Positions 25,612 through 61,523 of a stretch of DNA of 64,000 nucleotides are shown one piece after another (position 1 is the first letter of the stretch; every line of letters begins with the position of its first letter). The stretch is from Wenyingzhuangia fucanilytica (GTDB lineage Bacteria; Bacteroidota; Bacteroidia; Flavobacteriales; Flavobacteriaceae): the NCBI RefSeq assembly GCF_001697185.1, contig NZ_CP014224.1, positions 620,001 to 684,000 of the forward strand. The letters are read 5' to 3'. Below the pieces are notes generated by a model. It saw only the letters and a program-made list of their open reading frames with translations, made no database searches and was not told the DNA's origin. A program made the position numbers and the translations under genes.

Positions 25612-26508
25612 ATGAAGTGCAATTTTTTTACGTTTTTTAGTATTGCGTTATTAACATTTAGTACCATAAGTTGCAGAACGCAATCTAAGATAAATTCCAA
25701 AGAAGAAGTTCATATTGTGCTATTGGGAGGTCAATCAAATATGTCTGGCGTAGGGCATTTTAAAAGCCTAGATGAAGAAACAATTTCACGTATTAATGCT
25801 CTTTCTAATCGTGTTATGTTAAGTGATACGCAACTCAAAAAATTAATACCACTTTCAGAACTTAAAAATCAAATTTGGGGAAAGGACAGAAGGTCAAAGA
25901 ATTTTGGACCTGAATTGTTTTTAGGTTTAACCTTAGCGGAAAAACATCCAAAGCAAAAGTACTTATTCATTAAAACAGCTCATGGTGGAACGGCATTGTA
26001 TGGGGCGTGGAATCCCAATTGGTCTCTTGAACAGTCTCAAGCTATTGAAAGAGGGGAGTATAAGCAAGGTTTAAAGTTATACAAAATACATATCAACCAA
26101 ATTAAAGCGCAACTAGCAAGATTGGTATCAGAAGGCAAAACCTATAAAATATTGGGCATGGTATGGATGCAGGGCGAAAATGACGGTGCGCTAGATGTTA
26201 GCGCCAAAAATTATGGTAAAAACTTAAAAGAGTTATTAGCAAGTTACCGTAGGGATTTGAATTTGCCTAATCTTCCTTTTGTTGCGGGACAAACAAATTC
26301 GCATTACGGTGTTAAAGGAGGTTCTGATATGGTAAGACAGGGGTTTTTGGATTTTGAAAAGTCTGAAGATCATGTTGCTGTAATTAAAACCCTAAGAGAT
26401 AGTCCGTATACCGATTTTCCAAAGCACTCTGACAATGTGCATTACAATGCAGAAGGTCAAAAAAGATTTGGAATCGCCTTTGCAAAAGCACTAATGACTT
26501 TAAACTAA
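25612..26508 (+). CDS. SGNH-type acetylesterase (SASA/CE6-like), copy 1
   Basis: A 298-residue lipoprotein-like protein (signal ending TISC, Cys21) with the SASA domain. The nucleophile motif is GGQSNM (Ser42), the oxyanion region includes KTAHGGTALYGAWNPNW and MVWMQGENDG, and the His motif is SDNVHYNAEGQK near residue 280. The family removes acetyl groups from sialic acids or plant and algal glycans. Within this PUL it would deacylate the polysaccharide or oligosaccharides at the cell surface or in the periplasm. It shares most of its sequence with the next gene, 44 bp downstream, so the pair arose by tandem duplication. Confidence 0.85.
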   Translation: MKCNFFTFFSIALLTFSTISCRTQSKINSKEEVHIVLLGGQSNMSGVGHFKSLDEETISRINALSNRVMLSDTQLKKLIPLSELKNQIWGKDRRSKNFGPELFLGLTLAEKHPKQKYLFIKTAHGGTALYGAWNPNWSLEQSQAIERGEYKQGLKLYKIHINQIKAQLARLVSEGKTYKILGMVWMQGENDGALDVSAKNYGKNLKELLASYRRDLNLPNLPFVAGQTNSHYGVKGGSDMVRQGFLDFEKSEDHVAVIKTLRDSPYTDFPKHSDNVHYNAEGQKRFGIAFAKALMTLN

Positions 26509-26552
26509 TATTATAAAAAAAATCAAAACTAATATTTTATACTATAAAAATT

Positions 26553-27452
26553 ATGAAAAAGATATTATCAACTTTAGCATGTTTCATTTTAACATTTAGT
26601 ATGCTTGATTGTAGAGCGCAATCTAAAGTGGATTTGAAAAAAGACGTTTATGTTGTTTTACTGGGAGGGCAATCTAATATGGTTGGTTTTGGGAATTACG
26701 ATCAGTTAGATGACAGAACAAAAGCGCGTATTGAAGCAATTTCAAATCGTGTAGCATTAAGTCATTATAAAGGAGATAAAGCATCGCCACTGTCTTATAC
26801 TAAAATTAAGTTGCATGAGAAATATAATCTCACAAAGCGTTTTGGACCTGAATTGTTTTTAGGACTAACACTAGCAGAAAACAATCCAAATCAGGAATTT
26901 TTATTAATTAAAACCGCTCAAGGAGGAACAGCTTTATATGGTGCATGGAACCCAAATTGGTCCGCAAAACAAGCAAAGGAAATAGAAAGAGGAGAGCAAA
27001 AGCAGAACATGAAATTATACGAAAACCATATAAACCAAATTAAAGCACAATTGGCCAGATTAAAAGCTGAAGGTAAATCGTATAAAATCATTGGAATGGC
27101 TTGGATGCAAGGCGAAAACGATGCGAAATTTGAAGCAAGTGCTAGTAATTATGGTAAAAATTTAGGCGTATTGCTTTCAAGTTATCGTAAGGAGTTTAAC
27201 ATACCAAATATGCCATTTGTTGCTGGTCAAACAAACTCACATTATGGTATGAAAGGGGGATCGGATATGGTTAGACAAGGGTTTTTAGACTTTGAAAAAT
27301 CAGAGGATAATGTTGTAGTAATTAAAACCGTACGAGATAGTCCATATACTGATTTTCCAAAGCATCCAGATAACGTTCACTACAATACAGAGGGACAGAA
27401 AAATTTAGGAACTGCTTTTGGAAACGCATTGATTCAATTAAATTCAAAATAA
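26553..27452 (+). CDS. SGNH-type acetylesterase (SASA/CE6-like), copy 2
   Basis: A 299-residue paralogue of the preceding gene. GGQSNM (Ser41), KTAQGGTALYGAWNPNW, MAWMQGENDA and HPDNVHYNTEGQK are all kept, so it should be active. The signal ends SMLDC-RAQS: Asp just before Cys is unusual for a lipobox, so this copy may be cut by signal peptidase I instead and differ in location from copy 1. The region after the nucleophile (residues 60-90) differs most, which may reflect different acceptors. Confidence 0.85.
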   Translation: MKKILSTLACFILTFSMLDCRAQSKVDLKKDVYVVLLGGQSNMVGFGNYDQLDDRTKARIEAISNRVALSHYKGDKASPLSYTKIKLHEKYNLTKRFGPELFLGLTLAENNPNQEFLLIKTAQGGTALYGAWNPNWSAKQAKEIERGEQKQNMKLYENHINQIKAQLARLKAEGKSYKIIGMAWMQGENDAKFEASASNYGKNLGVLLSSYRKEFNIPNMPFVAGQTNSHYGMKGGSDMVRQGFLDFEKSEDNVVVIKTVRDSPYTDFPKHPDNVHYNTEGQKNLGTAFGNALIQLNSK

Positions 27453-27575
27453 AGTTTATTTTAAATAAGTACAAGGTGGCGGTCTGATATAGAAATGTTG
27501 TTTGAGAGCTAATACTTTCATTACTATAAAACTGATTAATTTTGATTGGAATGATTATAATTAAATAAGCAAAAA

Positions 27576-29267
27576 ATGAAAAGCCCTATTTGTTGTGTTA
27601 CCACTTTATTTTTATGTATTCTATATATTCAAGTCAGCGCACAAAAACATGAAAAACAAGTTGTTGAGCGAGAAAGACCTTCAGAATGGAACAATTTAGT
27701 CCTCGGTGGACGTTTTATGGACAGATTTATGCTTATGCCAAATTTAGGAGGCATGACATCCAATACATGGGGCGCAAAAAATGTCATTCCTCGTGATATT
27801 AATAATGGTATAGAAGCCCCAAATTGGTCTTATTGGGGTGGAAATACCAAATTAGACAGAGATGGGAAATACCATGCAATAGTTTGTAGGTGGCCAGAAA
27901 ATGCAGAAAAAGGTCATTTTGAATGGTCGAAATCTACATTAGTACATGCTGTTTCTGATAATTCTTATGGTCCTTATCAAGTAAAAGAAAGTAGAGGTTT
28001 GGGTAAAGGGCACAACCCAGAATGGTATATCGCAAAAAATGGAAAATATGTAGTATATGTTATTGGTGCCCGCTATATATCCGATAGTATTAATGGCGTT
28101 TGGATCAAATCTAAATACACATTTGATGATAGAGACCGTAAAAACACCAAACAGCATAATTACATGCATAATTGTACGTTTACGCAAAGAGAAGATGGTA
28201 GTTTTTTAATGATTAACAGACATGGGCAATCTTGGTTTAGTAAAGATGGGATTTCAACATTTTATCGCGTTTCAGAAACAAATAATTACCCAAAAGTAGA
28301 AGGCAAATTTGAAGATCCATTTGTATGGCGAGACCACGTGCAATACAACATGATTGTTAACGATTGGTTGGGCAGGATGGCTTGGTACTTGCGCTCTAAA
28401 GACGGTGTAAATTGGATCGTAGATCCTGGAGAAGCTTATGCGCCAGGGCACATTTCAAAACATGAAAATGGTGTAAATGAAGATTGGTTTAAATACGAAC
28501 GTGTTAAACTGAATCAAGATAACTATGGAAGAGCGTATCAAGCAAATTTTGCGGTTATCGATACTTTGAAACATTCAGATTTAGGGAACGATAATCACAG
28601 TTCTAAATGGATTGCCGTACCGCTCAACAAGGGTCTTCTCATAAAAGTTGAAAACAAAAAAAATATCAATGCAGATACCAAAGAAATCAGGGTTAGAATT
28701 CTTGCTGAGGATGATTTTAATCCACAAAAAGATATAGATATCAATTCTTTAAGATTTGGTGCTTCAGAAGAAGTCAATTTTGGTAGAGGTAGTAAAGTGC
28801 TAAAAACTGAAAATTCTGGTAAAGATGTCATAGTGACTTTTAACGGCAAAGGCAACGGGTTTACTAAAACTAATTTTGCTGGTAAATTATTGGGTAAATC
28901 AATCAATGGCAAATTGATATATGGCTATTCTAGATTGCCAAAAGTAGATTATGAAGTTCCTATTTTATCTTCTAGATTACCAAAATTTATTCAAACAGAA
29001 AATAGAACAACTATTGAAGTTGATGTTGAAAACTTCGGACAAGTCGCTTCAAAAAAATCATGTTTAAAAGTTATTCTCGTAAACAATTCAGAAAAGGAAG
29101 AAATTTTAGCATCATCTAAAATACCATCTATTGAACCTTTTGAAAAAAATAAAATAAAATTAACCTCGGTTAAAAAGTTCAAAAAAGGAGAAACAGCTAT
29201 TATTAAAACTCTAATAGAGCAGAAAGACATGACCCCCGTTATATTTAAAAAGACTATCGTCTTTTAA
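27576..29267 (+). CDS. Secreted five-bladed beta-propeller glycoside hydrolase candidate (GH43/GH117-like fold)
   Basis: A 563-residue protein with a signal peptide (MKSPICCVTTLFLCILYIQVSA). Residues 30-350 look like a five-bladed propeller: APNWSYWGGNTKLDRDGKYH, GKGHNPEWYIAKNGKYVVYV, MHNCTFTQREDGSFLMINR and GKFEDPFVWRDHVQYNMIV each form a blade with acidic residues typical of inverting hydrolases of clans F and J. Residues 350-563 form a beta-sandwich tail, the end (from about 470) resembling a CARDB-type domain. No exact family can be assigned by eye. In the PUL it is a likely exo-enzyme acting on a galactose, anhydrogalactose or related residue. Confidence 0.65.
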   Translation: MKSPICCVTTLFLCILYIQVSAQKHEKQVVERERPSEWNNLVLGGRFMDRFMLMPNLGGMTSNTWGAKNVIPRDINNGIEAPNWSYWGGNTKLDRDGKYHAIVCRWPENAEKGHFEWSKSTLVHAVSDNSYGPYQVKESRGLGKGHNPEWYIAKNGKYVVYVIGARYISDSINGVWIKSKYTFDDRDRKNTKQHNYMHNCTFTQREDGSFLMINRHGQSWFSKDGISTFYRVSETNNYPKVEGKFEDPFVWRDHVQYNMIVNDWLGRMAWYLRSKDGVNWIVDPGEAYAPGHISKHENGVNEDWFKYERVKLNQDNYGRAYQANFAVIDTLKHSDLGNDNHSSKWIAVPLNKGLLIKVENKKNINADTKEIRVRILAEDDFNPQKDIDINSLRFGASEEVNFGRGSKVLKTENSGKDVIVTFNGKGNGFTKTNFAGKLLGKSINGKLIYGYSRLPKVDYEVPILSSRLPKFIQTENRTTIEVDVENFGQVASKKSCLKVILVNNSEKEEILASSKIPSIEPFEKNKIKLTSVKKFKKGETAIIKTLIEQKDMTPVIFKKTIVF

Positions 29268-29571: not shown

Positions 29572-31128
29572 ATGATAAGTTTTAAAAAGAGTTCAAGTTT
29601 AAAAATCAGTACTATTGTAATCAGTACACTTTTCTATACAGCATGCTATGCTCAGAATATTTCTGAAAAAGCTGTCGAAAAACCAAACATCATATATATT
29701 CTTGCAGATGACTTAGGAATTGGAGATGTTCAAGTTTTTAATAAAAATGGAAAGATTAAAACCCCTAATTTAGATCAATTAGCTCTCGAAGGTATGCGCT
29801 TTACAGATGCACATACATCTTCATCTGTGTGCACACCTACTCGATATGGTATCATGACAGGTCGCTATAATTGGAGAACCACACTAAAGAAAGGTGTTTT
29901 AAATGGCACATCTAAAGCACTTATTCCAAAAAATAGAACTACGGTAGCTTCATTATTAAAAAAGCAAGGTTATGATACCGCTTTTATTGGAAAGTGGCAT
30001 TTGGGATGGGACTGGGCAGAAAAGCCAAATGTTAAAGGAAAAGATAGTTATGATTTTTCCAAACCTGTTTCGCATACGCCAAACGATTTAGGTTTTGATT
30101 ATGCATACGGTATTTGTGGGTCTTTAGATATGGCGCCATATATTTATGTAGAAAATAGTAAGCCAACCGCAAAATCAGAAACCATTGCTAATGGTAACAA
30201 GGGTTACGGGTTTTGGAGAAAAGGGCCAGTAGCCGATGATTTCGAACATGAACAAGTATTGCCAAACTTTATCAATAGATCAGTAAAATATATTGAAAGT
30301 AAAAAAAATAGCAAAAAGCCTTTTTTTTTATATGTTCCATTGCCTTCTCCACATACACCAATATTGCCGACCAAGGAATTTCAAGGCAAGTCTGGATTAA
30401 ATCCTTACGGTGATTTTGTGATGATGGTTGATGCCTATGTTGGTAAAATATTTGATATCGTAAAAGCACAAGGAATGGAAAATAACACATTAATCATTTT
30501 TACTAGTGATAATGGAACTTCGGGAAAAGCTAATTTTAAAGCCTTAAAAGATAAAGGCCATGATCCAAGTGCAGGCTATAGAGGTTTGAAAGCAACTATT
30601 TTTGAGGGAGGGCATCGTGTACCTTTCATAGCAAAATGGACAGGCGTTATAAAACCAAATACTATTTCTAATCAAACCATTTGTACTACTGATTTTATGG
30701 CTACTTGTGCAGATATTGTAAATTATAAGTTACAAAATAATGAAGGAGAAGATAGTTTTAGCATGTTACCAATTCTCAAAAATGAAATTATACATGGCGA
30801 TTTTAGAGAAGCAACTGTGCATCATTCAAGTGGTGGGTTTTTCTCTATAAGAAAAGGCCCTTGGAAATTAATATTTTGCAAAGACGATGGTGGTTATAAA
30901 GAACTAAAAAATAGTTCAGAAATAAAGGGACTAGAGTATCAATTGTATAATTTAGAGAATGACCCTTCAGAAAAAAATAATTTATATACCGAAAATGTTA
31001 TTAAATATAAAGAGTTAAAAAACTTATTGAAAAAATACATAAAGGAAGGGAGAAGTACACCAGGAAAAGTTCAACAAAATGATATTATAGATTTCGAGTG
31101 GACACAAATTAATTCTATCATGCAATGA
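29572..31128 (+). CDS. S1-family sulfatase
   Basis: A 518-residue secreted type I sulfatase (signal peptide ending CYAQ). Metal ligands are in YILADDLGIGD. The formylglycine motif is SVCTPTRYGIMTGR, with Cys87 converted to formylglycine by a maturase that is not in this window. Other site residues lie in FIGKWHLGWDW, PLPSPHTPILPT and FTSDNGTSGKANF. It removes sulfate esters from the target glycan in the periplasm. No T9SS tail. Next to the HTCS gene. Subfamily not assigned. Confidence 0.93.
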   Translation: MISFKKSSSLKISTIVISTLFYTACYAQNISEKAVEKPNIIYILADDLGIGDVQVFNKNGKIKTPNLDQLALEGMRFTDAHTSSSVCTPTRYGIMTGRYNWRTTLKKGVLNGTSKALIPKNRTTVASLLKKQGYDTAFIGKWHLGWDWAEKPNVKGKDSYDFSKPVSHTPNDLGFDYAYGICGSLDMAPYIYVENSKPTAKSETIANGNKGYGFWRKGPVADDFEHEQVLPNFINRSVKYIESKKNSKKPFFLYVPLPSPHTPILPTKEFQGKSGLNPYGDFVMMVDAYVGKIFDIVKAQGMENNTLIIFTSDNGTSGKANFKALKDKGHDPSAGYRGLKATIFEGGHRVPFIAKWTGVIKPNTISNQTICTTDFMATCADIVNYKLQNNEGEDSFSMLPILKNEIIHGDFREATVHHSSGGFFSIRKGPWKLIFCKDDGGYKELKNSSEIKGLEYQLYNLENDPSEKNNLYTENVIKYKELKNLLKKYIKEGRSTPGKVQQNDIIDFEWTQINSIMQ

Positions 31129-39125: not shown

Positions 39126-40241
39126 ATGAGAGAATTATATAAGATAACACTGTTTTTGTTTTTTTTTGGATTGAACCAAATATCATCTCAAATTTTAGAT
39201 CCTATTGATTTTGGCTTTGAAGAAACTTCAATTGCAGATTGGACTCAAACAATAGGATTTACTGAAGAAACTTCTATTGTTGCTTCTGGTTTAAAAAGTA
39301 TGAAGGCCACGTTGCATTATCCGTTATCTAATTCACCTAAACTTCAAACCTACCGGAATTCAGGAACATCCAACGGTACTTTTGCATTAACGGAAGGAAA
39401 TTACAATGCCACAGTTATGGTTTATTTGGAGGGTGAAGTACCTTCTGGGTTGATAATTTCACCAACAGCAGCACCAGTATTTCCAACGTTTACTCTAGAT
39501 GGAGTTGCAAAAAATCAATGGGTTAAACTTACTGTGCCCTTCACAGTTGCTTTAGGGGAGGAACAATTGAATAATTGGGTAATAATTCAATTTACGGGAT
39601 TACCATCTTCAGGTTCAGGTACAGTTTATATTGATGACATTAAAATAGAGCCTGAGATAAATGAAGTGATACCCTATGTGTCTAAAATAGAAACTATAGA
39701 AAATGCATTTTTAAATTTAGATACAGGAAAATATAATTTGGCGCTAAATGTTTGGGTAGATGCTGATGCTACTATGTCAAGTTTCCATACCTATATAGAC
39801 GAACCATTTACGGTTCTTAAATGGGACTTAACGGACGTACCTAAAGACCAATGGGTGGCACTTAATCAAGATTTTGTTTTAGAAACACCGGCAGTGAATT
39901 CAAATTTTAAAATTCAAGTTAACAATAGTCCCGAGTATGGGGGTGGTAAAGGCACTTTTTATATTGATGGCATTAGTGTAACCAATAGTGCCTTGTTAAT
40001 AACGGAGAGTACTTTAGGAGATATTAAAATATTTCCAAATCCTGCCAAAGATTTGCTAAATGTTTGGTGTCCTGTCAACAGCAAAATAACTATTTATAGT
40101 GTGCAAGGCAACGAAATAAATTCAATAACAAGTACTAAAGACCATTTTGAGTTGCCAATTTTAAATTTATCTAAAGGAATATATATTATTAAGTTTTCTT
40201 TTGATGGACAGGTAAGTACCAGAAAGTTAGTAGTTGAATAG
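39126..40241 (+). CDS. T9SS-exported protein with two carbohydrate-binding-like modules
   Basis: 371 residues from ATG 39126 (MRELYKITLFLFFFGLN, a clear signal peptide); a longer frame from 39057 would overlap the preceding gene and lacks a signal. Two jelly-roll-like modules follow: FGFEETSIADWTQ..GTVYIDDIKIE (about 25-175) and a second ending GGGKGTFYIDGISVTN. The end is a type A T9SS sorting domain (IKIFPNPAKDLLNVW to RKLVVE). No catalytic motif is seen, so a surface-attached or released glycan-binding protein is likely. Starts 4 bp after the enzyme gene. Confidence 0.75.
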   Translation: MRELYKITLFLFFFGLNQISSQILDPIDFGFEETSIADWTQTIGFTEETSIVASGLKSMKATLHYPLSNSPKLQTYRNSGTSNGTFALTEGNYNATVMVYLEGEVPSGLIISPTAAPVFPTFTLDGVAKNQWVKLTVPFTVALGEEQLNNWVIIQFTGLPSSGSGTVYIDDIKIEPEINEVIPYVSKIETIENAFLNLDTGKYNLALNVWVDADATMSSFHTYIDEPFTVLKWDLTDVPKDQWVALNQDFVLETPAVNSNFKIQVNNSPEYGGGKGTFYIDGISVTNSALLITESTLGDIKIFPNPAKDLLNVWCPVNSKITIYSVQGNEINSITSTKDHFELPILNLSKGIYIIKFSFDGQVSTRKLVVE

Positions 40242-40363: not shown

Positions 40364-41209
40364 ATGAAAAAACAATTACTAAAAAAAAGATTCCTTGTTG
40401 CACTTGCTGTTGCATTTACAGGAATCCAAATGAGCGCACAAGCAAATTATAATACCGATGCTTGGGATTTTGAATTAGACGGTGGAGTTAACTGTAATTC
40501 TTCTTGGTGTGATGGAGGTACAGATATTGTTACTGCTTGGAGACAAGTTGCAGGTTTTGAACTATCTTCTGAACAAGCACAATCTGGGACTTACAGTATG
40601 AAAAATGATTTTACAATAACAGCTGATGGAGGAAAACTTCAAACGTGGAGATCTCAAGGGAATGAAGGTAAGGTGGAGATCACTGTTGCGGACCAATATA
40701 CTGCAGTTGCATGGTTCTATATAACTGGAACAGGAATTACAGAAGGTTCAGGTACATTTAGAATGACATTGGAAAATTCTAGGATTGCGGATTTTAATCT
40801 TACGGGACTTCCTATAAATACATGGACAAAAGTAGAAGTTAATTTTAGTACTACTCATGATGCTGGTACAGGTTTTTGGAGTAATATCAATTTTATAAGT
40901 ACGCCAACGGTAGGTTCTATTGTTTATGTTGATAATATAAGTTTTGTGCCAGCTGCAACTTTGAGTGTAGAAAAAAATACTTTAGAAGATGTAGCCGTTT
41001 ATCCAAACCCAACTAAGGAAACATTAAGCATTAATAGTCCTGCAGGAAGTAATATTGTTATATACAACCTTTTAGGAGCAACTGTTAAATCAATCAATAA
41101 TGCGAATGCCTTGCAAGATGTGTCGGTTTCAAATTTAAAAAGTGGTATGTACATGGTAAGAGTTACTAATAATGGTAAAGTTTATCAAGATAAAATCATC
41201 AAATTATAA
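40364..41209 (+). CDS. T9SS-exported protein with one carbohydrate-binding-like module
   Basis: A 281-residue protein with a signal peptide (ending MSAQA). A single jelly-roll-like module follows (about 27-200: WDFELDGGVN..GTYSMKNDF..GSIVYVDNISFVP), then a type A T9SS sorting domain (VAVYPNPTKETLSIN to DKIIKL). No catalytic motif is apparent. It shares the FE..W..SGTYS.K start with its neighbours. It has its own upstream region with the candidate operator, so it may be strongly induced. Confidence 0.75.
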   Translation: MKKQLLKKRFLVALAVAFTGIQMSAQANYNTDAWDFELDGGVNCNSSWCDGGTDIVTAWRQVAGFELSSEQAQSGTYSMKNDFTITADGGKLQTWRSQGNEGKVEITVADQYTAVAWFYITGTGITEGSGTFRMTLENSRIADFNLTGLPINTWTKVEVNFSTTHDAGTGFWSNINFISTPTVGSIVYVDNISFVPAATLSVEKNTLEDVAVYPNPTKETLSINSPAGSNIVIYNLLGATVKSINNANALQDVSVSNLKSGMYMVRVTNNGKVYQDKIIKL

Positions 41210-41922: not shown

Positions 41923-42165
41923 TTAATGCAGAGCTTTTAAAAGCTCTGCATTTTTGTTGTGTATAAAATTAGGTGTTTTATAATTTAAACTTAAGTGAGG
42001 TCTTTTTGTGTTATATATTTCTACAGTTTGTTCAATTAGCTTTTGTAACTCTTGTTTAACTATTCCATTAATCCTCTCAGCTAAAGCATTTTGATAACAA
42101 TCATAACCCTCAGTCATTGAAGATTGAATGTTATTATTTCTAAGTTTCTCTTGGTAAACTTCAGC
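41923..42165 (-). pseudogene. IS3-family transposase, C-terminal fragment
   Basis: About 78 C-terminal residues of an IS150-type transposase: the last catalytic Glu region QNALAERINGIVK, then IYNTKRPHLSLNYKTPNFIH. Homology begins abruptly near 42160. A further stretch of roughly 12-18 residues usually found between NGI-KQE and the LQKLIE helix is missing in frame, so the fragment carries an internal deletion as well as a lost N-terminus. Confidence 0.8.
41927..41955 (+). terminator. Perfect 24-bp palindrome with T tail
   Basis: TGCAGAGCTTTT and AAAAGCTCTGCA (41927-41950) form a perfect palindrome followed by TTTTTG. It overlaps the last codons of the transposase fragment and can end transcription of the upstream binding-protein gene. 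Confidence 0.7.
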
Positions 42166-50430: not shown

Positions 50431-52629
50431 TTACTGTCCAAAACCACCATCTCCCTTTATACGATCTTTAATACCAATTTCAGGCTTAAGGGATTTTGCA
50501 TTAGGATCAAAAGTCCAAATTGTCTGGTCTTTTATAGTTTTTCCGTTCTTTTTAACCGAGACTTCAATCCTGTTTTTACCCTTTTTAAGGGTAATGTCTT
50601 CCCATATTACAGTTTTAAAGTCATTTGTTTTAGCTGTGCTTATGGTTTTTCCGTTTACTTTTAATTTTACGGCATCAGAAATATTGCAGTATATTTTTAC
50701 GGGAGTTTTGGCACTAGTTCTAATAGTATGACGTTTACTCGTAATGTGCAGAACAGGTTGCTTAGACCAATTCGCTTTATAAAAGAAAAAAGCATCTTTT
50801 TTAATTTTTCTATCGAAAGTAACTAGCCCTTTGTCGTTGATTCCTTCTTGACCGCCTTCCCTGCGTTTAGCAGCGCTAAAATCGAACATGTTCCAAACAA
50901 AAGATCCCCATATATAAGGTGTTTGACTGTAACGAGCCCATGAGGCCTCATGAACTATACTTTGCCATTCTTCAGGATGCCAAAAATCTCTTGGAACGGG
51001 TTGGTTTGGGTTTTGCTCGTGGTGTTCTATATTTGCACCTGCACCATATTCGCTAAAGCAAAATCCACCATGTTGGCTAGTGGGTTGATATTTGTCCCAC
51101 TGTGTTGGATTATATAAATTTTCAATAGAGTCATACCATCCAGGATAGCGGTTCCAACCTAAAATATCTGGAATTCGGTTCATTTGTGGAGAGGCATAAT
51201 GACTGGTTGCTGCAACTGTTGGTCTTGTAGGATCTTCAACAGATGCTAAGTTTTCTAAATCTACAAAATCTCGATGCGGATCATTCCTGCTAACATGAAC
51301 CTCATTAAACAAGCCCCAAGCAAAAACACTAGGGTGATTTATTTGTTGGCGGATCATATCCAATAATTGATTTCTAGAGTTGGTCACGAAGTCATCATGT
51401 TCTTTTATACTTCCTACTTGCGGAATTTCAGACCATACAAGTAAACCTGCTTTATCACATAAATCCATCAAATAATCACTATGCTGATAGTGGGCACATC
51501 GTAAGGCATTTGCACCCATTTCGGTAATTAATGCAATATCCTCTTCTAAATCTTTATTAGAAACTGCCCAACCTTTATTTTTTCTATCTTGATGTTTAGA
51601 TACACCTTTTAAGCGATATGGTTTTCCGTTAAGAAAAAAACCTTTATCTGGGTCAATATTAAATGATCTTAAACCTATATTTTGCGAGATTTTATCAATT
51701 GTTTTTCCTTTGGATTTAAGAGAGATGACACCTTTATATAAATAAGGGTCAATAGTTCCCTGCCATAAGTGTGGGTTTTTTATGTGTAATTGAAGCTTAA
51801 AAGGAATGGTTAGATTAGGGGATAGGTTTATTTGATGGGTTTTAGATACTACTAAATTTCCTTTATCATCATATATGTTTGCTTCCAAATCAAACAAACC
51901 ATCGGGAAGTGTTTCATTTAGCTCTTTAGGAAAATGATTGAATTTTAGACCTTTATCTGTACTGTTAGATATCCAAGCTGTAATATCTAAAACAGCCTTT
52001 TCTTCTGAAACATCTGTTTGAAGCCATTTTATACCTGAACTCGCATGATCGGTTAGGTTGAAACAAATATCAGCGGTTTCAATAAGATGCACAGAACGAT
52101 AAATACCTCCATAAATATTAAAATCCCCACCTAATGGTGCAATACTATTATCAAATTCGTTAGAAGCTTTTACAGCAAGTATATTTTCTTTTTTTGCATT
52201 TAGATGTTCGGTTATTTCAAAACAAAACGCACCAAAACCCCCCATGTGGTTTCCAATGTTTTTTCCGTTTAAGTAAACTTCGGCTTTGTAGCCTACAGCT
52301 TCAAAACGAAGAAAATAGCGTCTCCCGGTTTTGGGTTCAATATGTAGTTTTTTTCTATACCAACCTGGACCTCGGTAATATTTTTTGTCGCCTTTTTCAG
52401 CGGTTTCCCAACCCCAGTTATGAGGAAGGTTTAGCAGTTCCCATTCGGAATGATTAAAGTTTTCTTTTTCAGCGTCTGAAATATCTCCTTTTTGAAAAAA
52501 CCAACCCTCGTTAATAATTTGATCGGTTCTATTATTATGCTGTTGACTATAAATTGTATTTACCCATATAAAAGAAAACAATGTCAGAATTGTTAATAGA
52601 TATGTTTTTCCGTACTTCAAGTGTTTCAT
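50431..52629 (-). CDS. GH2 beta-galactosidase-type glycoside hydrolase
   Basis: A 732-residue secreted enzyme (signal peptide about 1-28). Domain order is typical: sugar-binding domain (LRFEAVGYKAEVYLNGKNIG, PLGGDFNIYGGIYRSVHLIE), Ig-like domain, then the TIM barrel with GVSKHQDRKNKGWAVS, WGLFNEVHVSRND (acid/base Glu443) and FCFSEYGAGAN (nucleophile Glu527), and a C-terminal beta domain. GH2 covers beta-galactosidase, beta-glucuronidase and others; the NE.H and SEYGA context favours the beta-galactosidase group common in algal galactan PULs, which is inference. First gene of a unit with the GH116-like lipoprotein. Confidence 0.92.
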   Translation of the reverse strand: MKHLKYGKTYLLTILTLFSFIWVNTIYSQQHNNRTDQIINEGWFFQKGDISDAEKENFNHSEWELLNLPHNWGWETAEKGDKKYYRGPGWYRKKLHIEPKTGRRYFLRFEAVGYKAEVYLNGKNIGNHMGGFGAFCFEITEHLNAKKENILAVKASNEFDNSIAPLGGDFNIYGGIYRSVHLIETADICFNLTDHASSGIKWLQTDVSEEKAVLDITAWISNSTDKGLKFNHFPKELNETLPDGLFDLEANIYDDKGNLVVSKTHQINLSPNLTIPFKLQLHIKNPHLWQGTIDPYLYKGVISLKSKGKTIDKISQNIGLRSFNIDPDKGFFLNGKPYRLKGVSKHQDRKNKGWAVSNKDLEEDIALITEMGANALRCAHYQHSDYLMDLCDKAGLLVWSEIPQVGSIKEHDDFVTNSRNQLLDMIRQQINHPSVFAWGLFNEVHVSRNDPHRDFVDLENLASVEDPTRPTVAATSHYASPQMNRIPDILGWNRYPGWYDSIENLYNPTQWDKYQPTSQHGGFCFSEYGAGANIEHHEQNPNQPVPRDFWHPEEWQSIVHEASWARYSQTPYIWGSFVWNMFDFSAAKRREGGQEGINDKGLVTFDRKIKKDAFFFYKANWSKQPVLHITSKRHTIRTSAKTPVKIYCNISDAVKLKVNGKTISTAKTNDFKTVIWEDITLKKGKNRIEVSVKKNGKTIKDQTIWTFDPNAKSLKPEIGIKDRIKGDGGFGQ

Positions 52630-53537
52630 TCTAATTTTTATGTTTTTGGATTAGTTTTAAATTTTTGTGGGTATTTGATATCTCGATAAAAGTTATTTGA
52701 TAGACCCAATCATTTCAAATTTCAGCTAATTTCGATTATTTGATGTGTCTATAGGTTTATTTGATGTGTACTAGAATAATTTACTATTCTTTCTAAAGGA
52801 TTTGGAAGGTTACTGAACTACCAGGTGATATAGTTATTAAGTTAGAAAAATATCAGATACTAAATAAATAATACATTTTAGATTGAATTAAAAACTTCTT
52901 TTTAAGCCAAACATTTTTAATGGTAAAAGAAAATATGGGGGGGATTAGCAGGAGTGTCGATTACTTATAAAATCTAAAATCACTAAAAATCACAAATTTA
53001 GAGAAGTCTTAATTTGTTGATATCTCCCTAGCTAACGTAGAGAAAATTAAACCCTGAATTTAGGTAATAGGATGAGGTATCGTTATTGGATATTCTTTTT
53101 TTCAAACTCTGACTTGGTGTATTTTATTTAAATGGTGAATTAATAAAATAATAAGAATTGAATCTTAACAAGGTATACAACAATTTAAAGCATAAGTCAT
53201 TTTTAGAGAAAGTATTATATAGGAAATAACTATAACGTAATTTAAGAATAAGCCAAATTACAGGAGTTTTCCAGCGATGAAGTATTTTGTTTAGGGTAGT
53301 AGATATCTAAGGATTTACTACTAGGTACGCTTTATAAATTATTAGACAAGTCAAATGTATGGTTAGTTTTAAATTTACATTTTAACTAATAAAAACACGA
53401 TAAAATAATGAAAAACATACTTATTAAAGACTCAGGATAACGTATCTGTAAAAACAAAAGCAATACACTAAATAAAAAAACTGATTTTCTTGACAACGAA
53501 AAGGAGGTTAGTTAAACAACAAACTAATTTAAAATTA
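52630..53537. other. Divergent 908-bp region between the GH2 and SusC units
   Basis: No gene was recognised. It contains the candidate operator at 52738-52768, oriented towards the GH2 gene. The remainder (52780-53480) is AT-rich with no long open frame. It should also hold the SusC promoter, for which no clear -33/-7 pair was seen. Confidence 0.6.
52738..52768 (-). promoter_or_regulatory. Candidate HTCS operator, site 2
   Basis: On the minus strand: CACATCAAAT, 11 bp containing ACCTATAGA, CACATCAAAT. It is a perfect 10-bp direct repeat with a 21-bp period and 25/31 identical to the site at 40281. It lies 108 bp upstream of the GH2 start and has the same orientation relative to its gene as site 1. 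Confidence 0.65.
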
Positions 53538-56500
53538 ATGAAAATGAACAAACTATTAACGAGAAAAAAGTTGTTAGGTAATTTTTTACTGATGCTATTT
53601 TTTATCATCCTCAGTAGTGCTATGGAGGTGCGTGCTCAAGATTTAACTGTAACAGGAACTGTAACAAGTGCCGAAGATGGAATGCCTATTCCTGGAGTTA
53701 CTGTTCTTAAAAAAGGTACTACCGCAGGTGTTCTTACAGATTTTGATGGAATATATACAATTCAAGCTAAAACAGGTGATGTCCTACAATTTCGATATTT
53801 AGGTATGGAAGAAAAGGATGTCGTAGTTAGTAAATCTACTATAAATTTGGAAATGACTTCTAGTATAGAAGATTTAGATAAAGTGGTTGTTATAGGATAT
53901 GGAACCGTGAAAAAGAAAGAAGTAACAGGGGCGGTTTCTAGCTTGAAATCTGAAGATATAGAGCAAGTTGTTACATCAGATTTAGGAACGGCGTTGCAGG
54001 GGCAAATGGCAGGTGTTAATGTCATCGCTAGTTCTGGACAACCAGGAGCTGAATCTGAAATTCTAATTCGTGGTATAACTACAGTTTCAGGGAGTAATAC
54101 GCCCCTTTACATTGTTGATGGTTTAATACAGGATGGGGATCCTGGTATAAGCCCAAACGAAATACAATCTATAGATGTTTTAAAAGATGCAGCCTCAACG
54201 GCAATTTATGGAACTCGTGGTGCAGCGGGGGTTATATTGATTACAACTAAGCAAGGAGAAAAAGGTTCTTTATCGGTAAGAGCTAATTCTAGCTACGGTA
54301 TTCAACACCTTAGCGGTACGCCAACGCGATTGATGAATGCTAACCAACAAACCTATTTTGAATTAGTTCAAAATAGAAATTCATCAAGCCTAGGGTTGCA
54401 AGATGATGAAATAGATATTATTGGTTTAAGTCCAAACAAATTACAGTTAGATACTAATCTTTTTAAGCGTATTGTAATAGATAACCAACCCACACAGAAT
54501 CATTCTGTAAATATATCAGGAGGAACAAAAGATATAACATATAGTGTAACCACTGGTTTATATAAAACGGAAGGGACTTTGGTTAATTCCAATTTTGAAC
54601 GGTTTAATATAAGAGCCAATACAACATATAAGCATGATAAATGGGATATTAGGGCAAGTGTTTCAATAGCTAACGAAAATACAAATTATGCTCCTGGAGG
54701 ATTAACAACACAAATAATTAAATATTCTCCATTAAGGCAAGATTTAACTACTATAGCTCCTGACGAAGTTATTGTGTCAGAAGGGGGATTGGATGGTGTA
54801 ATTACAGGATGGGTATTAGAAAGCTTTGAAAATGAAAGTACTAAAGACGTAGTTAAAAATCAAACTAATTTAAATTTAAATTATAATTGGACCAAAAAAT
54901 TAAAATTATCATTAAGATACGGTATATCTACAATAAACGAATACAGGCACACATTTAACCCATACAGGGAAGTAATCGATGTATTTGATAATGATTTAAG
55001 TCCAAATGCCAGTAGTGGAGTTTCAAACGCTTCTCTAAGACGATATAATAGAAGTTTAGACCTTTTTGCAACTTATAAGTTTAATATAAAAAACGATCAT
55101 AATTTTACACTAACAGGAGGTGCAACTTTTGAAGATTATATAGCGGAACAGTATAGGGCAAGTAGATTAGGAGTTCTAGACAACAGCATTAAAGTTTTAA
55201 ATGGTACGAGTATAAGCCCGGAAGTAAGCTCTGGTAGAGATACCCGTCATAAAATTCAAGGTGTCATAGGAAGATTACAGTATGGGTATAAAGGGAGATA
55301 TTTATTAAGTTCTAGTATAAGACGCGATGCTTCATCTAGATTTTCTGAAGAATATCGATCTAATTTATTTCCTTCTACAGCGTTTGCTTGGAATGTATCT
55401 GATGAGAATTTTTGGAAGCCATTTAAAAGAACAGTCAATAACGCTAAATTTAGGGTGTCTTACGGAGAAGTAGGGAATGAGAGTTTTGGTGATTATGCGT
55501 TTGATGCTTCTATTACACCTAATATTGATTATGTTTTCGGATCAGACTCTTTTACAAACGGGGCTATTCAAACAGCTTTTGCCAATGAAGCGATTAAGTG
55601 GGAGACGTCTATTCAAACAAATTTTGGTTTAGATTTAGGTTTTTTTAAAAACAAGTTCACCTTAAGTGCAGAATATTACGACAAGACAAATAAAGATATG
55701 TTGTTTCCAATTGTTACGCCTGGTTCTGCAGGTGGTGGAGGTAATGCTCAGGTTATCCTTAACGTAGGAAACATGACAAATAAAGGACTTGAGTTAACGG
55801 CAGGTTACAAAACTAATATAGGAAAGTTGAGGTTGAAAATGAATGGAACCTTTACTACAAATAAAAATAAAGTAACAAGAATCAATGGGTTAGGAGGGTT
55901 TGCCTACACCAATGATTCAGGATTAATTCAGGGTGCAAGAGGGGCTTCCCAAGTAACTACTTTAGCTGAAGGGTATGAAGCTGGTGCTTTTTTCTTATAT
56001 CCAACAGATGGTGTAGTTAATACGCAAGAAGAATTAATTGAATACCAGAAAATTGATCCAAGTGCTAGATTAGGAGACTTAAAGTATGTTGATACAGATT
56101 TAAGTGGAAATATTACAGATGCCGATAGAGTTTATAGCGGAAGTGGGTTACCAGAATACGAAATAGGTTATAATATTAATGCAAGCTACAGAGGATTTGA
56201 TGTGTCGATGAACTGGTATGCCGCATTAGGACATGAAATTATGAATGGTTCAAAAGCAACTGCTTTTGGTTTTGGTAGACATGAGGACTTAGTATATCAA
56301 TGGTCCGAAGCGAATCCAACCTCAAATATTCCAGCATATAGAGGACAAGTTAATAATCACGCAAATTATAAAGGGTATACTGATTTATGGTTAGAAGATG
56401 GAGATTATTTACGATTAAAACAAGTGACTCTAGGTTATAGTTTTTCTAAAAAAGTTACAGAAAGCTTGGGGTTTAGTAAGTTAAGATTGTACGCGTCTGC

Positions 56501-56636
56501 ACAAAACCCACTTACTTTTACAAATTATTCTGGGTTTAATCCAGAAGTAGGTGGGAGAATAACAAGTAGAGGATTAGATAAAGGGAATTACCCAATTACA
56601 TCATTATACTTAGTTGGTCTTAATTTAAACTTTTAA
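53538..56636 (+). CDS. SusC-family TonB-dependent transporter
   Basis: 1032 residues from ATG 53538; an earlier TTG at 53490 is unlikely because it adds a charged segment before the signal peptide. After the signal (ending VRAQ) comes a carboxypeptidase-like beta domain (VTGTVTSAEDGMPIPGVTVL), then the plug (KVVVIGYGTVKKKEVTGAVS, LYIVDGLIQDGDPGISPNEI, VLKDAASTAIYGTRGAAGVI) and a 22-strand barrel ending LYLVGLNLNF. Imports oligosaccharides through the outer membrane with the SusD lid, powered by TonB. No FecR/sigma signalling extension. Followed by SusD after 12 bp. Confidence 0.97.
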   Translation: MKMNKLLTRKKLLGNFLLMLFFIILSSAMEVRAQDLTVTGTVTSAEDGMPIPGVTVLKKGTTAGVLTDFDGIYTIQAKTGDVLQFRYLGMEEKDVVVSKSTINLEMTSSIEDLDKVVVIGYGTVKKKEVTGAVSSLKSEDIEQVVTSDLGTALQGQMAGVNVIASSGQPGAESEILIRGITTVSGSNTPLYIVDGLIQDGDPGISPNEIQSIDVLKDAASTAIYGTRGAAGVILITTKQGEKGSLSVRANSSYGIQHLSGTPTRLMNANQQTYFELVQNRNSSSLGLQDDEIDIIGLSPNKLQLDTNLFKRIVIDNQPTQNHSVNISGGTKDITYSVTTGLYKTEGTLVNSNFERFNIRANTTYKHDKWDIRASVSIANENTNYAPGGLTTQIIKYSPLRQDLTTIAPDEVIVSEGGLDGVITGWVLESFENESTKDVVKNQTNLNLNYNWTKKLKLSLRYGISTINEYRHTFNPYREVIDVFDNDLSPNASSGVSNASLRRYNRSLDLFATYKFNIKNDHNFTLTGGATFEDYIAEQYRASRLGVLDNSIKVLNGTSISPEVSSGRDTRHKIQGVIGRLQYGYKGRYLLSSSIRRDASSRFSEEYRSNLFPSTAFAWNVSDENFWKPFKRTVNNAKFRVSYGEVGNESFGDYAFDASITPNIDYVFGSDSFTNGAIQTAFANEAIKWETSIQTNFGLDLGFFKNKFTLSAEYYDKTNKDMLFPIVTPGSAGGGGNAQVILNVGNMTNKGLELTAGYKTNIGKLRLKMNGTFTTNKNKVTRINGLGGFAYTNDSGLIQGARGASQVTTLAEGYEAGAFFLYPTDGVVNTQEELIEYQKIDPSARLGDLKYVDTDLSGNITDADRVYSGSGLPEYEIGYNINASYRGFDVSMNWYAALGHEIMNGSKATAFGFGRHEDLVYQWSEANPTSNIPAYRGQVNNHANYKGYTDLWLEDGDYLRLKQVTLGYSFSKKVTESLGFSKLRLYASAQNPLTFTNYSGFNPEVGGRITSRGLDKGNYPITSLYLVGLNLNF

Positions 56637-56648: not shown

Positions 56649-58433
56649 ATGAAAAACACAAAATATTTAATATTCATTTTTATGTTTTGGCACTTGGTGT
56701 CTTGTAATGATGAATATCTTTCAGAAAAAAATCCTAACGAAATTTCCTCAGGAACGTTTTGGAAAAATTTAAAAGATACAAATACAGGTTTGGTAGCAGC
56801 TTACAATGCGCTTTTAGATGAAGATATTTATGCAATTATTCAAGAAGGACTTAGGTCTGATATGGGATGGCCAGGATATGGAAGGCCTATTGGATCAGAT
56901 GAAAATTTACGCAATTTTTATGAGTTAAACTATACAAACAGTGATGGGTATGTCCAGAATAAATGGAATGCCGCATATACAGCAATATTTAGAGCAAATC
57001 AAGTAATAAGGGCACTTGAAAATATAGAGGAAACTACCTCTGAAGAAGAAAAAGAATTATGGTTATTACAAATGGGACAAGCTAGGTTTATTAGAGGACT
57101 TATGCATTTTTATCTGCATTCCGCTTATAATAAAGGAAGTATAATTATTAGAGATGAAGTTCCAGTTAATCCAGAGGATTTCAATAAACCATTATCTCCA
57201 TCAGAAGATGTTATTAAGTTCTTTAGACAAGATTTGGAATATGCATATTCAAATTTACCTGCGCAATATGAAAATCCTACTCAAAATGATGGTCGCATTA
57301 CTAAAGGAGCTGCTGCTGTTATTTTAGGTACTAGTTATCTATATGAAAAGAATTATGATACAGCTATAATTTATTTTGATGATATTATAAACGATATAAC
57401 TGCAGATTATGGGTATAAACTAGTAGAGGATATGAGTTTGTTATTCACTGAAGCAGGAGAGCATAATGATGAATCTATTTTGGAATTAAATTATACAAAA
57501 GACTTTAGAACAGATATAGGTGTTTGGGAGCCATATGGTTTATCCAATCAATTAGCATGGGCAGTTCCAAGCAACAAAGGACCTTTATTACCTGCATGGA
57601 TTATTAATGCTTATAAAAGTGAGAACCTAGATACTTTAGATGATAGAAATTATGTTGATGATCCAGACTCTCCTACTGGACGTTCTTTACGTCCTGTATC
57701 TTTAAGAACTTCTGCTATGGTCGGAATTGTTGATGATGATGTGTCTTTATTTTCTGACCAAGTAACTGGCTTACAAATTAGAATAAGTACCAATGGATGG
57801 GGTTTTGGTGTCTATAAAAAATATACTAATCATGATTTAAGTCCAGAAGAAGTAAGTTCAGACCCTAGGGGGGCTAGGGCTTCTGGTAAAAATATTATAT
57901 TAAACAGATTAGCCGATGTCTATCTTATGCAGGCTGAGTGTTTTATTAAAACAGGAGATATAGACGGTGCTTTAGAACTTATTAATGCAGTAAGACATAG
58001 GTGGGCTTTAGAATTACTTGGTCCTGAAAATCCTAAATGGTCAAACTCATCATTTGATTTGGAAAATTATAACGAACAGTCTCTTATGGAGCATCTTATG
58101 TTTGTAGAAAAACCTTTAGAAATGTCTTTAGAAGGGCATCAAACACGTTGGATTGATTTAAGAAGGTGGGGCATGTTAGGAGTAAATTTTCAAAACCTAT
58201 CAAATAAAACCTTTTATGCTAAAACTGTTACAATAAAAGATTTGGAAGGAAATCCTGTAACTAAATTTAATTCATCTATTACTGAAGATCCTGGAACTGC
58301 TTCTGGATTAAGTATCATAGATTATGAATATGATGAAAAAGCAGCCAATTATAATCCTGAACTTCATGATTATTTACCTATACCATTAGGTGAAATAATG
58401 AGAAACTCAAATATTAATTTAAATGATAACTAA
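56649..58433 (+). CDS. SusD/RagB-family surface lipoprotein
   Basis: A 594-residue lipoprotein (lipobox HLVSC, Cys19) with the SusD helical repeat core (NPNEISSGTFWKNLKDTNTG, GQARFIRGLMHFYLHSAYNK, TKGAAAVILGTSYLYEKNYD) and the C-terminal RLADVYLMQAECFIKTGD and LEGHQTRWIDLRRWG. It forms the lid over SusC and binds the glycan at the surface. Last residues are NDN; the next gene's ATG follows one base after the stop. Confidence 0.96.
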   Translation: MKNTKYLIFIFMFWHLVSCNDEYLSEKNPNEISSGTFWKNLKDTNTGLVAAYNALLDEDIYAIIQEGLRSDMGWPGYGRPIGSDENLRNFYELNYTNSDGYVQNKWNAAYTAIFRANQVIRALENIEETTSEEEKELWLLQMGQARFIRGLMHFYLHSAYNKGSIIIRDEVPVNPEDFNKPLSPSEDVIKFFRQDLEYAYSNLPAQYENPTQNDGRITKGAAAVILGTSYLYEKNYDTAIIYFDDIINDITADYGYKLVEDMSLLFTEAGEHNDESILELNYTKDFRTDIGVWEPYGLSNQLAWAVPSNKGPLLPAWIINAYKSENLDTLDDRNYVDDPDSPTGRSLRPVSLRTSAMVGIVDDDVSLFSDQVTGLQIRISTNGWGFGVYKKYTNHDLSPEEVSSDPRGARASGKNIILNRLADVYLMQAECFIKTGDIDGALELINAVRHRWALELLGPENPKWSNSSFDLENYNEQSLMEHLMFVEKPLEMSLEGHQTRWIDLRRWGMLGVNFQNLSNKTFYAKTVTIKDLEGNPVTKFNSSITEDPGTASGLSIIDYEYDEKAANYNPELHDYLPIPLGEIMRNSNINLNDN

Positions 58434-60159: not shown

Positions 60160-60200
60160 TTATAAAAAATATGAAAACCTAGTTTTTCGATTAATCAAAT

Positions 60201-60240
60201 AAAAGCCTGCTAAGTAGTGTGTTTACTAGTAGGCTTTTTT
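60201..60240 (+). terminator. Terminator of the susCD unit
   Basis: AAAAGCCTGCTA (60201-60212) pairs with TAGTAGGCTTTT (one G-T pair) and is followed by a T run. It separates susCD and the binding protein from the GH105-type gene. Confidence 0.85.
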
Positions 60241-60374
60241 AACTAGCAGAACCGAATTAAGCAGAGGCTATTGTCTAATAATTTTGCTTTAAAAGGAAAT
60301 AATTTTGAAGAAAAAGCAGGTGTTTAAATTGTACAGTTTAAAAGAAGATATTGGTTAATATATAAATATAACAA

Positions 60375-61523
60375 ATGAGTTTAAGTATAAAGAAAAGTAA
60401 ATTATTCTTTTTAATTATAGTAATTATAATTCAAAAAAGTTATGCTCAAAAAGAAAAAATCACTCTTAAAAGTGTATATACTATAACAAAAAAGGTAACA
60501 GATTGGCAAATTGAAACATTTGATGAAATGGGAAAGTATCGAGCCTTACCAACCCAAAATTTAAAACATTTTCATCACCGTAAACGTTACAAAGATGTGG
60601 TATGGAATTGTGGTGTTTTGTATTCAGGAATTTTAGAATGGAATACTATAGCTAAAGATAGTGTCTATGATTCATGGTTGCTAAATATAGGATATAGAAA
60701 TGGATGGAGGTTAGATGATCATAGGTCTGTTTTTAATGCCGATAATCACACTGTTGGATATGCTTATATTCAATTATTTCAACAAGAAAAAGATAGTATG
60801 ATAATTCAACCTTTATTAAAAGGCTTTGATAAAATTTTGGAAACTTCAGAAAAAGAAAAATCCTATTGGACTTGGGCAGATGCTTTGTTTATGTCTCCTC
60901 CAGTATGGGCTTCTTTAGGAGATTTAACTGGAAATCTAAAATATTTATCTTATATGGATAAACAATACCGTTTGACTTATAAACATTTATGGAATGCTAA
61001 AGATCAACTTTTTTATAGGGATAAAGCACGTATAAAAAATAGAGAAAAAAATGGAGCAAATGAATATTGGTCAAGAGGAAACGGATGGGTTTTTGGGGGA
61101 TTGACCTATATGCTACCACATTTACCTGAAAATTGGGAGGGGCGAGAATTTTATATAACCTTATTTCAACAAATGGCAGAGGCTTTAAAAAAGACACAAC
61201 GTACAGATGGAACTTGGTCTATGGGAATGATGGGTGATGAAAAAGATTATCCTGTAAAAGATGTAAGTGGTTCTAATTTTTTTGTTTTTGGACTGGCTAG
61301 AGGTGTTAATATGGGGATTTTAGATAAAAAAACCTATGATCCTATTATTCGTAAAGGATGGAAAGCATTAACTAGCTGTGTACGAGAAGATGGTTTGGTC
61401 GGTTATGTTCAAGGAGTAGGTGCTGCTCCAGGTGAAGCATTTGCAAATTATACAGAAGTATATGGTACTGGTGGATTTATCTCAGCGGGAGCTGAAATGT
61501 ATAAATATCTATTAAACGATTAA
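60375..61523 (+). CDS. GH105-type unsaturated glycuronyl hydrolase
   Basis: A 382-residue protein with a signal peptide (ending KSYAQ) and the (alpha/alpha)6 fold of GH105/GH88. Seen: VVWNCGVLYSGILEW, RLDDHRSVFNADNHTVGYAY, YWTWADALFMSPPVWASLGD (catalytic Asp) and NEYWSRGNGWVFGGLTYMLP. These enzymes add water to 4,5-unsaturated uronic acid residues left by polysaccharide lyases. No lyase is encoded in the window, so the substrate either comes from a lyase elsewhere or the activity differs. Length is normal. It has its own promoter region after a terminator. Confidence 0.88.
   Translation: MSLSIKKSKLFFLIIVIIIQKSYAQKEKITLKSVYTITKKVTDWQIETFDEMGKYRALPTQNLKHFHHRKRYKDVVWNCGVLYSGILEWNTIAKDSVYDSWLLNIGYRNGWRLDDHRSVFNADNHTVGYAYIQLFQQEKDSMIIQPLLKGFDKILETSEKEKSYWTWADALFMSPPVWASLGDLTGNLKYLSYMDKQYRLTYKHLWNAKDQLFYRDKARIKNREKNGANEYWSRGNGWVFGGLTYMLPHLPENWEGREFYITLFQQMAEALKKTQRTDGTWSMGMMGDEKDYPVKDVSGSNFFVFGLARGVNMGILDKKTYDPIIRKGWKALTSCVREDGLVGYVQGVGAAPGEAFANYTEVYGTGGFISAGAEMYKYLLND

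Follow-up and report, generated by a model that had tools for sequence, protein, structure and literature searches.

The catabolic routes of kappa-, iota- and lambda-carrageenan have been established. Published systems close to the locus presented here are built around GH150, a family described as acting on lambda-carrageenan only (PMC12549532). The lambda cascade of P. distincta U2A, as set out in the same source, comprises GH150, GH110, GH2, S1_8 and S1_15 enzymes, and the strain also carries a divergent GH150B with 26% identity to CglA. GH150-based carrageenan loci are likewise reported from P. carrageenovora 9T and Flavobacteriaceae bacterium S85 (Gobet 2018, PMC6262041), and in having this family they resemble the polysaccharide utilization locus (PUL) that we describe from Wenyingzhuangia fucanilytica. 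It lies within a stretch of 64,000 nucleotides (the window; G000:C1:620001-684000 of a 3.43-Mb single-contig genome, G000 denoting the genome of the window). The assignment of the locus to the GH150/lambda system is strongly indicated by its sequence. On balance we judge it somewhat probable that it is a variant lambda-carrageenan-type PUL, a single system that supplements the genome's main lambda PUL and prefers a decorated, likely uronate-bearing lambda-type galactan.

A preliminary description of this DNA had listed the genes of the locus, noted a 971-residue "propeller/barrel enzyme" and concluded that the combination fits no standard algal polysaccharide system. The genes it names do occur as long intact open reading frames (ORFs), most of them backed by Pfam in a scan of 19 window proteins. 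The 971-residue protein (36206-39121) matched CGLA_M at 3.9e-186 (619.1 bits), Beta-prop_CGLA at 5.8e-133 (443.7 bits) and CGLA_C at 2.1e-37 (127.5 bits), against cut-offs of about 27, and is by family a GH150 lambda-carrageenase for which endo-cleavage of lambda-carrageenan is predicted. Because this enzyme belongs to GH150 the cluster is read as a lambda-carrageenan-type PUL, and with the regulator, transporter and esterases being paralogues of proteins in the lambda PUL of the same genome the claim that it fits no standard system is not supported.

Phylogenetic analysis placed the window GH150 together with one from genome G008 in a third lineage (100/100) outside the two main groups. The nearest GH150, with 60% identity, belongs to a large lambda PUL in G008. 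In a conserved-column check of 20 GH150 sequences the window copy deviated at 3 columns where the other 19 agree, the others deviating at 0-18. A GH150 search covering 99 relatives turned up six matches in the window's own genome. Besides the window copy these were near-full-length copies at 2011 kb (53%) and 2016 kb (50%), a more divergent GH150-type gene matched in two pieces near 1981 kb, and a single match that was short and weak. A divergent GH150-type gene (L033:15626-18331) of about 900 amino acids, with about 28-30% identity to that of the window, was found in G000, G002, G004, G006, G008 and G057.

The main lambda PUL occupies G000:C1:1965-2037 kb, where 80 kb were read and ten otherwise unannotated proteins were scanned with Pfam. 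It shares with the window a hybrid two-component system regulator (HTCS), SusC/D/E, a pair of SASA esterases (adjacent there too), GH150 and secreted binding-like proteins, and it encodes a smaller protein related to the window's propeller protein. Identities to the window proteins were 54% for HTCS, 58% for SusC, 50% for SusD, 34% for SusE and 48-55% for the SASA proteins, and the window therefore holds a paralogous lambda-type system. In contrast to the window the main PUL encodes three GH150-type genes, GH110 with GLAA-B domains, GH127, GH42-like enzymes, GDSL esterases in addition to the SASA type, and eleven sulfatase-like genes (recounted) matching the S1 sulfatases of the window. The window GH116, GH88 and RbsD-like genes had no BLAST match within the main lambda PUL. 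The preliminary description had taken the SASA genes as a sign of an acylated substrate. They do belong to the system, each with GQSN and D-x-V-H motifs, but as the main PUL has a similar pair we dropped them as a mark of a special acylated substrate.

Such paralogy could also mean that the locus is a redundant PUL for plain lambda-carrageenan, in which the unusual enzymes trim minor neutral side groups or are non-essential. The GH150, HTCS, SusC/D, SASA and S1_15-like sulfatase are all paralogues or relatives of lambda-system proteins, and the nearest GH150 as well as a GH2 with the N-x-K motif are part of the large lambda PUL in G008. The window however lacks GH110 and an S1_8-like 2-O-sulfatase, its SusC falls in a separate sister clade and its GH150 in the third lineage, so that we consider redundancy rather unlikely. 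The most probable substrate is, at about even odds, a lambda-type galactan that bears decorations, plausibly uronic acid among them, rather than plain lambda-carrageenan.

In the main PUL the genes for SusC/D/E and HTCS adjoin; in the window the HTCS lies to the left and SusC/D/E to the right, separated by an RbsD-GH116-S1-GH116-GH2 block. Both HTCS proteins fell within one clade of 11 (100/100). Searching 19 chosen genomes we found nine other SusC proteins with at least 55% identity to that of the window, and at seven of the eight loci examined (the G006:C2 locus was left out) a lambda-type HTCS (45-55% identity to that of the window) is no more than about 11 kb away, which ties the left-half HTCS to the right-half SusC/D/E and favours the two halves being one system. 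In a tree of 28 SusC sequences the window protein grouped with those of G117, G004 and G042 (98/98) as sister to the main lambda clade, and the G117 SusC shares a 40-kb stretch with a GH150.

The two sulfatases carry the S1 signatures C-T-P-T-R and C-S-P-T-R respectively, and their subfamily labels derive from PDB neighbours, not from SulfAtlas. The best PDB matches of the first (29572) include the S1_15A and S1_15B structures 9bas and 9bau, with 3.5e-70 to S1_15A compared with 1.3e-16 to S1_8A (9bb9). The second (45892) matched the kappa-carrageenan sulfatase S1_16 structure 9fo1 over residues 36-495 with 360.5 bits (9.3e-107, compared with 1.5e-22 to 9bb9). Comparison of both with PDB structures revealed no S1_8-type (2-O) sulfatase in the window, and none of the 19 scanned proteins had a GLAA-B match indicative of GH110. 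A relative of the S1_15-like sulfatase with 53.5% identity occurs in another large sulfatase-rich cluster of this genome (G000:C1:740-800 kb; L284, L080, L285), which also has two GH116-type genes.

Precursor-type carrageenans of the mu/nu-like kind bear 4- and 6-sulfate. That such a precursor and not lambda-carrageenan is the substrate would agree with the absence of a 2-O sulfatase type from the window and with the resemblance of the sulfatases to S1_16, acting 4-O on kappa oligomers (PMC11760155), and S1_15, acting 6-O (PMC12549532). We nevertheless find it improbable: S1_16 also includes 6S-GalNAc enzymes according to PMC11760155, the subfamily labels are those of PDB neighbours, and GH150 is the family that PMC12549532 describes as lambda-only.

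The nearest type for the GH2 enzyme was the NCBIfam LacZ4 beta-glucuronidase (NF050095), and its N-x-K motif is in register with all five printed PDB relatives (loop 8). This motif separates group I GH2 beta-hexuronidases from beta-galactosidases, some hexuronidases being without it (PMC12243196). It is kept in four of the five GH2 proteins compared, the G057 protein having H-D-K. GH2 together with the sulfatases had been put forward as a pointer to a sulfated galactan; since the beta-hexuronidase motif is present the enzyme is no evidence for galactose. The propeller protein, a candidate GH117-like propeller, was rejected as a lambda-only marker, as the 80 retained of 238 related stretches (49-59%) span Bacteroidota, Planctomycetota and others and only some of the closest of these 80 lie in lambda-type loci. 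In Arenibacter certesii (L167:9214-11560) an RbsD-like gene (39%) directly precedes a propeller homologue, a second pairing of an RbsD-like gene with a glycosidase candidate.

Homologs were searched in 349 genomes of the family (290 complete, 237 genera), the use of the same set across searches being deduced from equal tallies. The 927-residue GH116 protein resembles an exo-beta-D-arabinofuranosidase (8ic6, 187.9 bits; next PDB match 65.5), and beta-D-arabinofuranosidase activity is predicted. Its catalytic Glu/Asp pair is kept in all 23 aligned sequences and matches that of ExoMA2 in the alignment. Counterparts of ExoMA2 His446 and Arg483 were seen by eye in the sequence alignment, with numbering offset by 4 from PMC10509167, whose authors regard the His and Arg as distinctive residues of ExoMA2. 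Two orthologues with more than 60% identity (62-64%) were detected, in G280 and G214, and in both genomes an RbsD-like gene adjoins the GH116 gene as it does in the window, which suggests that a furanosidase may act together with a protein that interconverts ring forms or anomers. The RbsD-like protein scored below the RbsD_FucU cut-off, and its structure model (predicted local distance difference test score 42.9) was too poor to use. The 827-residue GH116-type protein had no match at 1e-40 outside its own genome among the family genomes, and nine pattern hits for relatives in a scan of genome contigs yielded none confirmed. It has an end branch of about 5 in the tree and keeps the catalytic pair Glu412 and Asp535.

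The conserved pair gives some weight to the view that the locus consists of two modules, a lambda module (the left half plus SusC/D/E and HTCS) beside an unrelated furanoside module (RbsD plus GH116) brought in by insertion. An insertion sequence (IS) remnant lies at the junction of the blocks, neither G280 nor G214 is among the genomes in which GH150 was detected, and in G280 the pair is found 10-16 kb from the L-arabinose genes araA, araB and araD. Against this the right SusC/D/E and left HTCS form one lambda-type system, and neither a further SusC/D pair nor another regulator that could serve the GH116 genes was seen in the window; we therefore regard two modules as unlikely. The evidence speaks against the preliminary suggestion of two substrates at once where the regulator and transporter core is concerned, but the suggestion may hold for the RbsD-GH116 pair, whose two close relatives occur in genomes without a detected GH150.

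In order to place the right half we compared it with the loci of its nearest SusC relatives, G004:C23 and G042:C2 (65-68% identity). Behind SusC/D/E both encode a GH2 of LacZ4 type, a GH88 and a lyase-like protein of 618 or 623 residues with a Hepar_II_III C-terminal domain, and the G042 locus in addition has a GH110-type gene, SASA and a lambda-type HTCS (52%). Gene by gene, identities to the window in the two loci were 65-67% for SusC, 58-63% for SusD, 47-48% for SusE, 37-39% for GH2 and 49-51% for GH88. Unlike the window they contain the lyase-like gene and gave no GH116 match in 40 kb of each. The Hepar_II_III protein may be a lyase or an oligosaccharide dehydratase; such dehydratases occur in ulvan degradation (PMC8511951). 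Relatives of the lyase-like gene with at least 62% identity (own source counted) occurred in three of 20 hand-picked genomes, all three GH150-positive, and since 15 of the 20 are GH150-positive anyway this co-occurrence lends no statistical support.

The best PDB match of the window GH88/105-type enzyme was 4ce7, an unsaturated 3S-rhamnoglycuronyl hydrolase (1.6e-56), which would suit an ulvan PUL. With GH150 and the lambda-type HTCS and SusC/D present ulvan was rejected as the substrate; no lyase Pfam match was found among the 19 scanned window proteins, and an ulvan PUL is highly improbable here. GH88 is not carrageenan-specific, with matches at 1e-60 in 37 of the 349 family genomes. In a tree of 21 the window protein had an end branch of 1.1 compared with a median of 0.23, its exact placement not being settled. 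Several close GH88 relatives are fusions of about 800 residues, and eight of the close relatives (L288, L290, L291, L293-L297; 45-53%) measure 801-811 residues.

A number of observations weigh against a variant lambda-type PUL with a uronate-bearing substrate. The sequence does not reveal the substrate preference of the GH150. G004:C23 had no lambda-type HTCS in 40 kb, the only candidate being an ORF of 27% identity cut off at the stretch border, and the 40-kb stretches of G004 and G042 both lacked a GH150; in G117 the GH88 and lyase-like neighbours (G117:C43) lie apart from the SusC/GH150 locus. The GH116 orthologues come from genomes outside the GH150-positive ones. The LacZ4 score of the GH2 (688.3 bits) falls below the curated cut-off of 950, and the big lambda PUL of G008 also holds an N-x-K GH2 (34%), so that the motif is not an exclusive mark of the variant. 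A k-mer search of 23 upstream regions, with three settings and eight shuffles each, gave no convincing promoter motif common to the left, right and main-PUL promoters, for which reason co-regulation of the halves is put forward here as an inference. Two settings gave nothing above the shuffles; with 24-mers and up to 6 mismatches an AT-rich word of a main-PUL promoter recurred in 7 other regions against a shuffle maximum of 6, which we did not count as a motif. For the lyase-like gene the window genome offered no close homologue (best 23%, 4.2e-7), and the GH88 departs from 19 mutually agreeing relatives at 16 columns, against 0-3 departures for any one of those relatives. These changes include R118S, H121N and D124N in addition to 13 others, the relatives being invariant around D123; D123 and D169 are kept, among 69 invariant columns.

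As 16 family-invariant positions are changed, unsaturated uronates are not safely read from the GH88, which may have acquired a new specificity or be drifting, and in the absence of the lyase-like gene an unsaturated-uronate branch may fail here. The earlier inference from GH105 to unsaturated uronic acids is weakened accordingly and we no longer take the enzyme as their proof. The same data could point to a decaying or recently reshuffled island in which GH88 and some accessory genes drift, as would the IS remnant, the long GH88 branch and the missing lyase-like partner. This seems doubtful at best, given that the ORFs are intact, the SASA proteins, sulfatases and both GH116 enzymes retain catalytic or signature residues, the GH2 retains N-x-K and the GH150 deviates at so few conserved columns.

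For the favoured variant lambda-type PUL we propose a scheme whose activities, compartments and order of steps are predicted from family membership, paralogy, synteny and motifs. GH150 and the proteins with a type IX secretion system (T9SS) tail or CBM-like domain would bind and cut lambda-type galactan outside the cell, SusC/D would import the oligosaccharides and HTCS would sense them. Decorations would be removed in the periplasm by the SASA esterases, the sulfatases of S1_15-like (6-O) and S1_16-like type, the predicted GH2 beta-hexuronidase and the GH116 enzymes, perhaps joined by GH88, and the core oligosaccharides would pass to the GH110 and sulfatase cascade of the main PUL. Sulfated glucuronogalactans of Gigartinales type are one example of the candidate preferred substrate; uronate-bearing galactans of this kind are reported from Gigartinales including Schizymenia (PMC3148497). 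A bolder reading, which we hold to be possible though unlikely, is that of a so far undescribed system for red-algal sulfated glucuronogalactans. The third-lineage GH150 and distinct SusC/D subclade would take in uronate-bearing lambda-type galactan, the GH2 beta-hexuronidase would remove the uronate and the GH116 would free a furanose that the periplasmic RbsD-like lipoprotein turns into a pyranose, with the orphan GH116-type enzyme and a GH88 departed from unsaturated uronates acting on other linkages.

The features of the locus are collected in Table 1. The ORF of the first T9SS-tailed protein is listed from 39057, its start probably being the Met at 39126, past the GH150 stop. Three small secreted proteins are encoded, two with a T9SS tail; relatives of both the T9SS-tailed and CBM4_9-like types recur beside GH150 in G000 and G008 (L035, L038) and may represent a carrageenan-binding family.

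Table 1 Features of the locus and its borders, in window positions
Feature	Position	Strand	Evidence
tRNA-Leu, left island edge	24691..24775	-	ARAGORN; similarity to G002/G005 flanks stops about here
SASA-type carbohydrate esterase 1	25612..26508	+	Pfam SASA 1.6e-32; 52%/48% to SASA pair of main lambda PUL
SASA-type carbohydrate esterase 2	26553..27452	+	Pfam SASA 3.8e-33; 55%/51% to SASA pair of main lambda PUL
Propeller glycosidase candidate, 563 aa, CARDB-like C-terminus	27576..29267	+	No family match above cut-off
S1 sulfatase, S1_15-like (predicted exo-6-O)	29572..31128	+	Pfam 1.6e-49; CTPTR; PDB 9bas/9bau
HTCS, 1381 aa	31908..36053	+	Pfam domains
GH150 lambda-carrageenase (by family), 971 aa, third lineage	36206..39121	+	Pfam, alignment, tree
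Secreted binding-like protein, T9SS tail	39126..40241	+	Por_Secre_tail 2.4e-12; 32%/42% to two main-lambda-PUL proteins
Secreted binding-like protein, T9SS tail	40364..41209	+	Por_Secre_tail 6.5e-14; 32-39% to three proteins beside GH150 in G008
CBM4_9-like binding protein	41364..41864	+	CBM_4_9 6.4e-4, below cut-off; 30-39% local matches beside GH150 in G000, G008
IS integrase remnant, junction of left and right blocks	41923..42252	-	Pfam rve_3 3.1e-14
RbsD/FucU-like putative lipoprotein	42410..42991	-	RbsD_FucU 6.2e-4, 20.7 bits, below 25-bit cut-off
GH116/DUF608, 927 aa	42995..45778	-	Pfam; nearest solved relative exo-beta-D-arabinofuranosidase
S1 sulfatase, S1_16-like	45892..47388	-	Pfam 2.5e-56; CSPTR; PDB 9fo1
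Orphan GH116-type (DUF608) enzyme, 827 aa	47890..50373	-	Pfam
GH2 with beta-hexuronidase N-x-K motif	50431..52629	-	NCBIfam LacZ4 688.3 bits; alignments
SusC-type transporter	53490..56636	+	Pfam; tree
SusD-type binding lipoprotein	56649..58433	+	Pfam; 58-63% to G042/G004, 50% to main lambda PUL
SusE-position protein, 578 aa	58423..60159	+	47-48% to G042/G004 counterpart, 34% in main lambda PUL
GH88/105-type enzyme, divergent	60375..61523	+	Pfam 2.3e-68, 231.2 bits, cut-off 26.6
tRNA-Lys, right island edge	61786..61859	-	ARAGORN

The PUL fills the interval of about 37 kb between the two tRNA genes, and we compared this interval across six other genomes of the genus (G001-G006). In G002 and G005 matching flanks lie less than 2 kb apart with one long ORF between them, an aldehyde dehydrogenase in G002, and in G003, G001 and G004 the interval measures about 29, 33 and 48 kb respectively and holds other PUL genes; GH43 and GH127 are among those of G003, while G004 has sulfatase-like genes. 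G006 has its flanks on separate contigs. Between the island edges no exact direct repeat of 12 bases or longer was found. The interval (24691-61859) resembles a site of PUL exchange within the genus. Outside the island (9152-16763) the window has surface-polysaccharide biosynthesis genes encoding YfhO, two GT4-type glycosyltransferases, a UDP-GlcNAc 2-epimerase and a Polysacc_synt (flippase-type) protein.

No paper joining glucuronogalactan with polysaccharide utilization was found in the open-access library searched, and of the papers found there that name GH116 together with carrageenan none, judged by titles, concerned a carrageenan PUL. The cluster and its G004 and G042 relatives provide a concrete, testable gene set for uronate-bearing red-algal galactans, in a genome with two GH150 PULs. 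Also of note are the third lineage of GH150, the orphan enzyme of GH116 type and the pairing of a predicted furanosidase with an RbsD-like protein. The unusual gene set and uronate of the preliminary description are supported in part: the set departs from the lambda cascade known from the literature, and a uronate is made plausible by the N-x-K motif and by the company of GH2, GH88 and the lyase-like gene in two genomes. The 9T and S85 PULs are reported with GH150, GH2 and GH110, and the main text of PMC6262041 contains none of the terms GH116, GH105 and acetylesterase. With the lambda-CarPUL of P. distincta U2A, as far as it is set out in PMC12549532 (Vickers 2025), it shares the GH150 endo-enzyme, an S1_15-like sulfatase and a GH2; it differs in lacking GH110 and an S1_8-type sulfatase, in the beta-hexuronidase motif of its GH2 and in the presence of SusC/D and HTCS, two SASA esterases, two GH116 enzymes, GH88, the RbsD-like protein and the propeller candidate.

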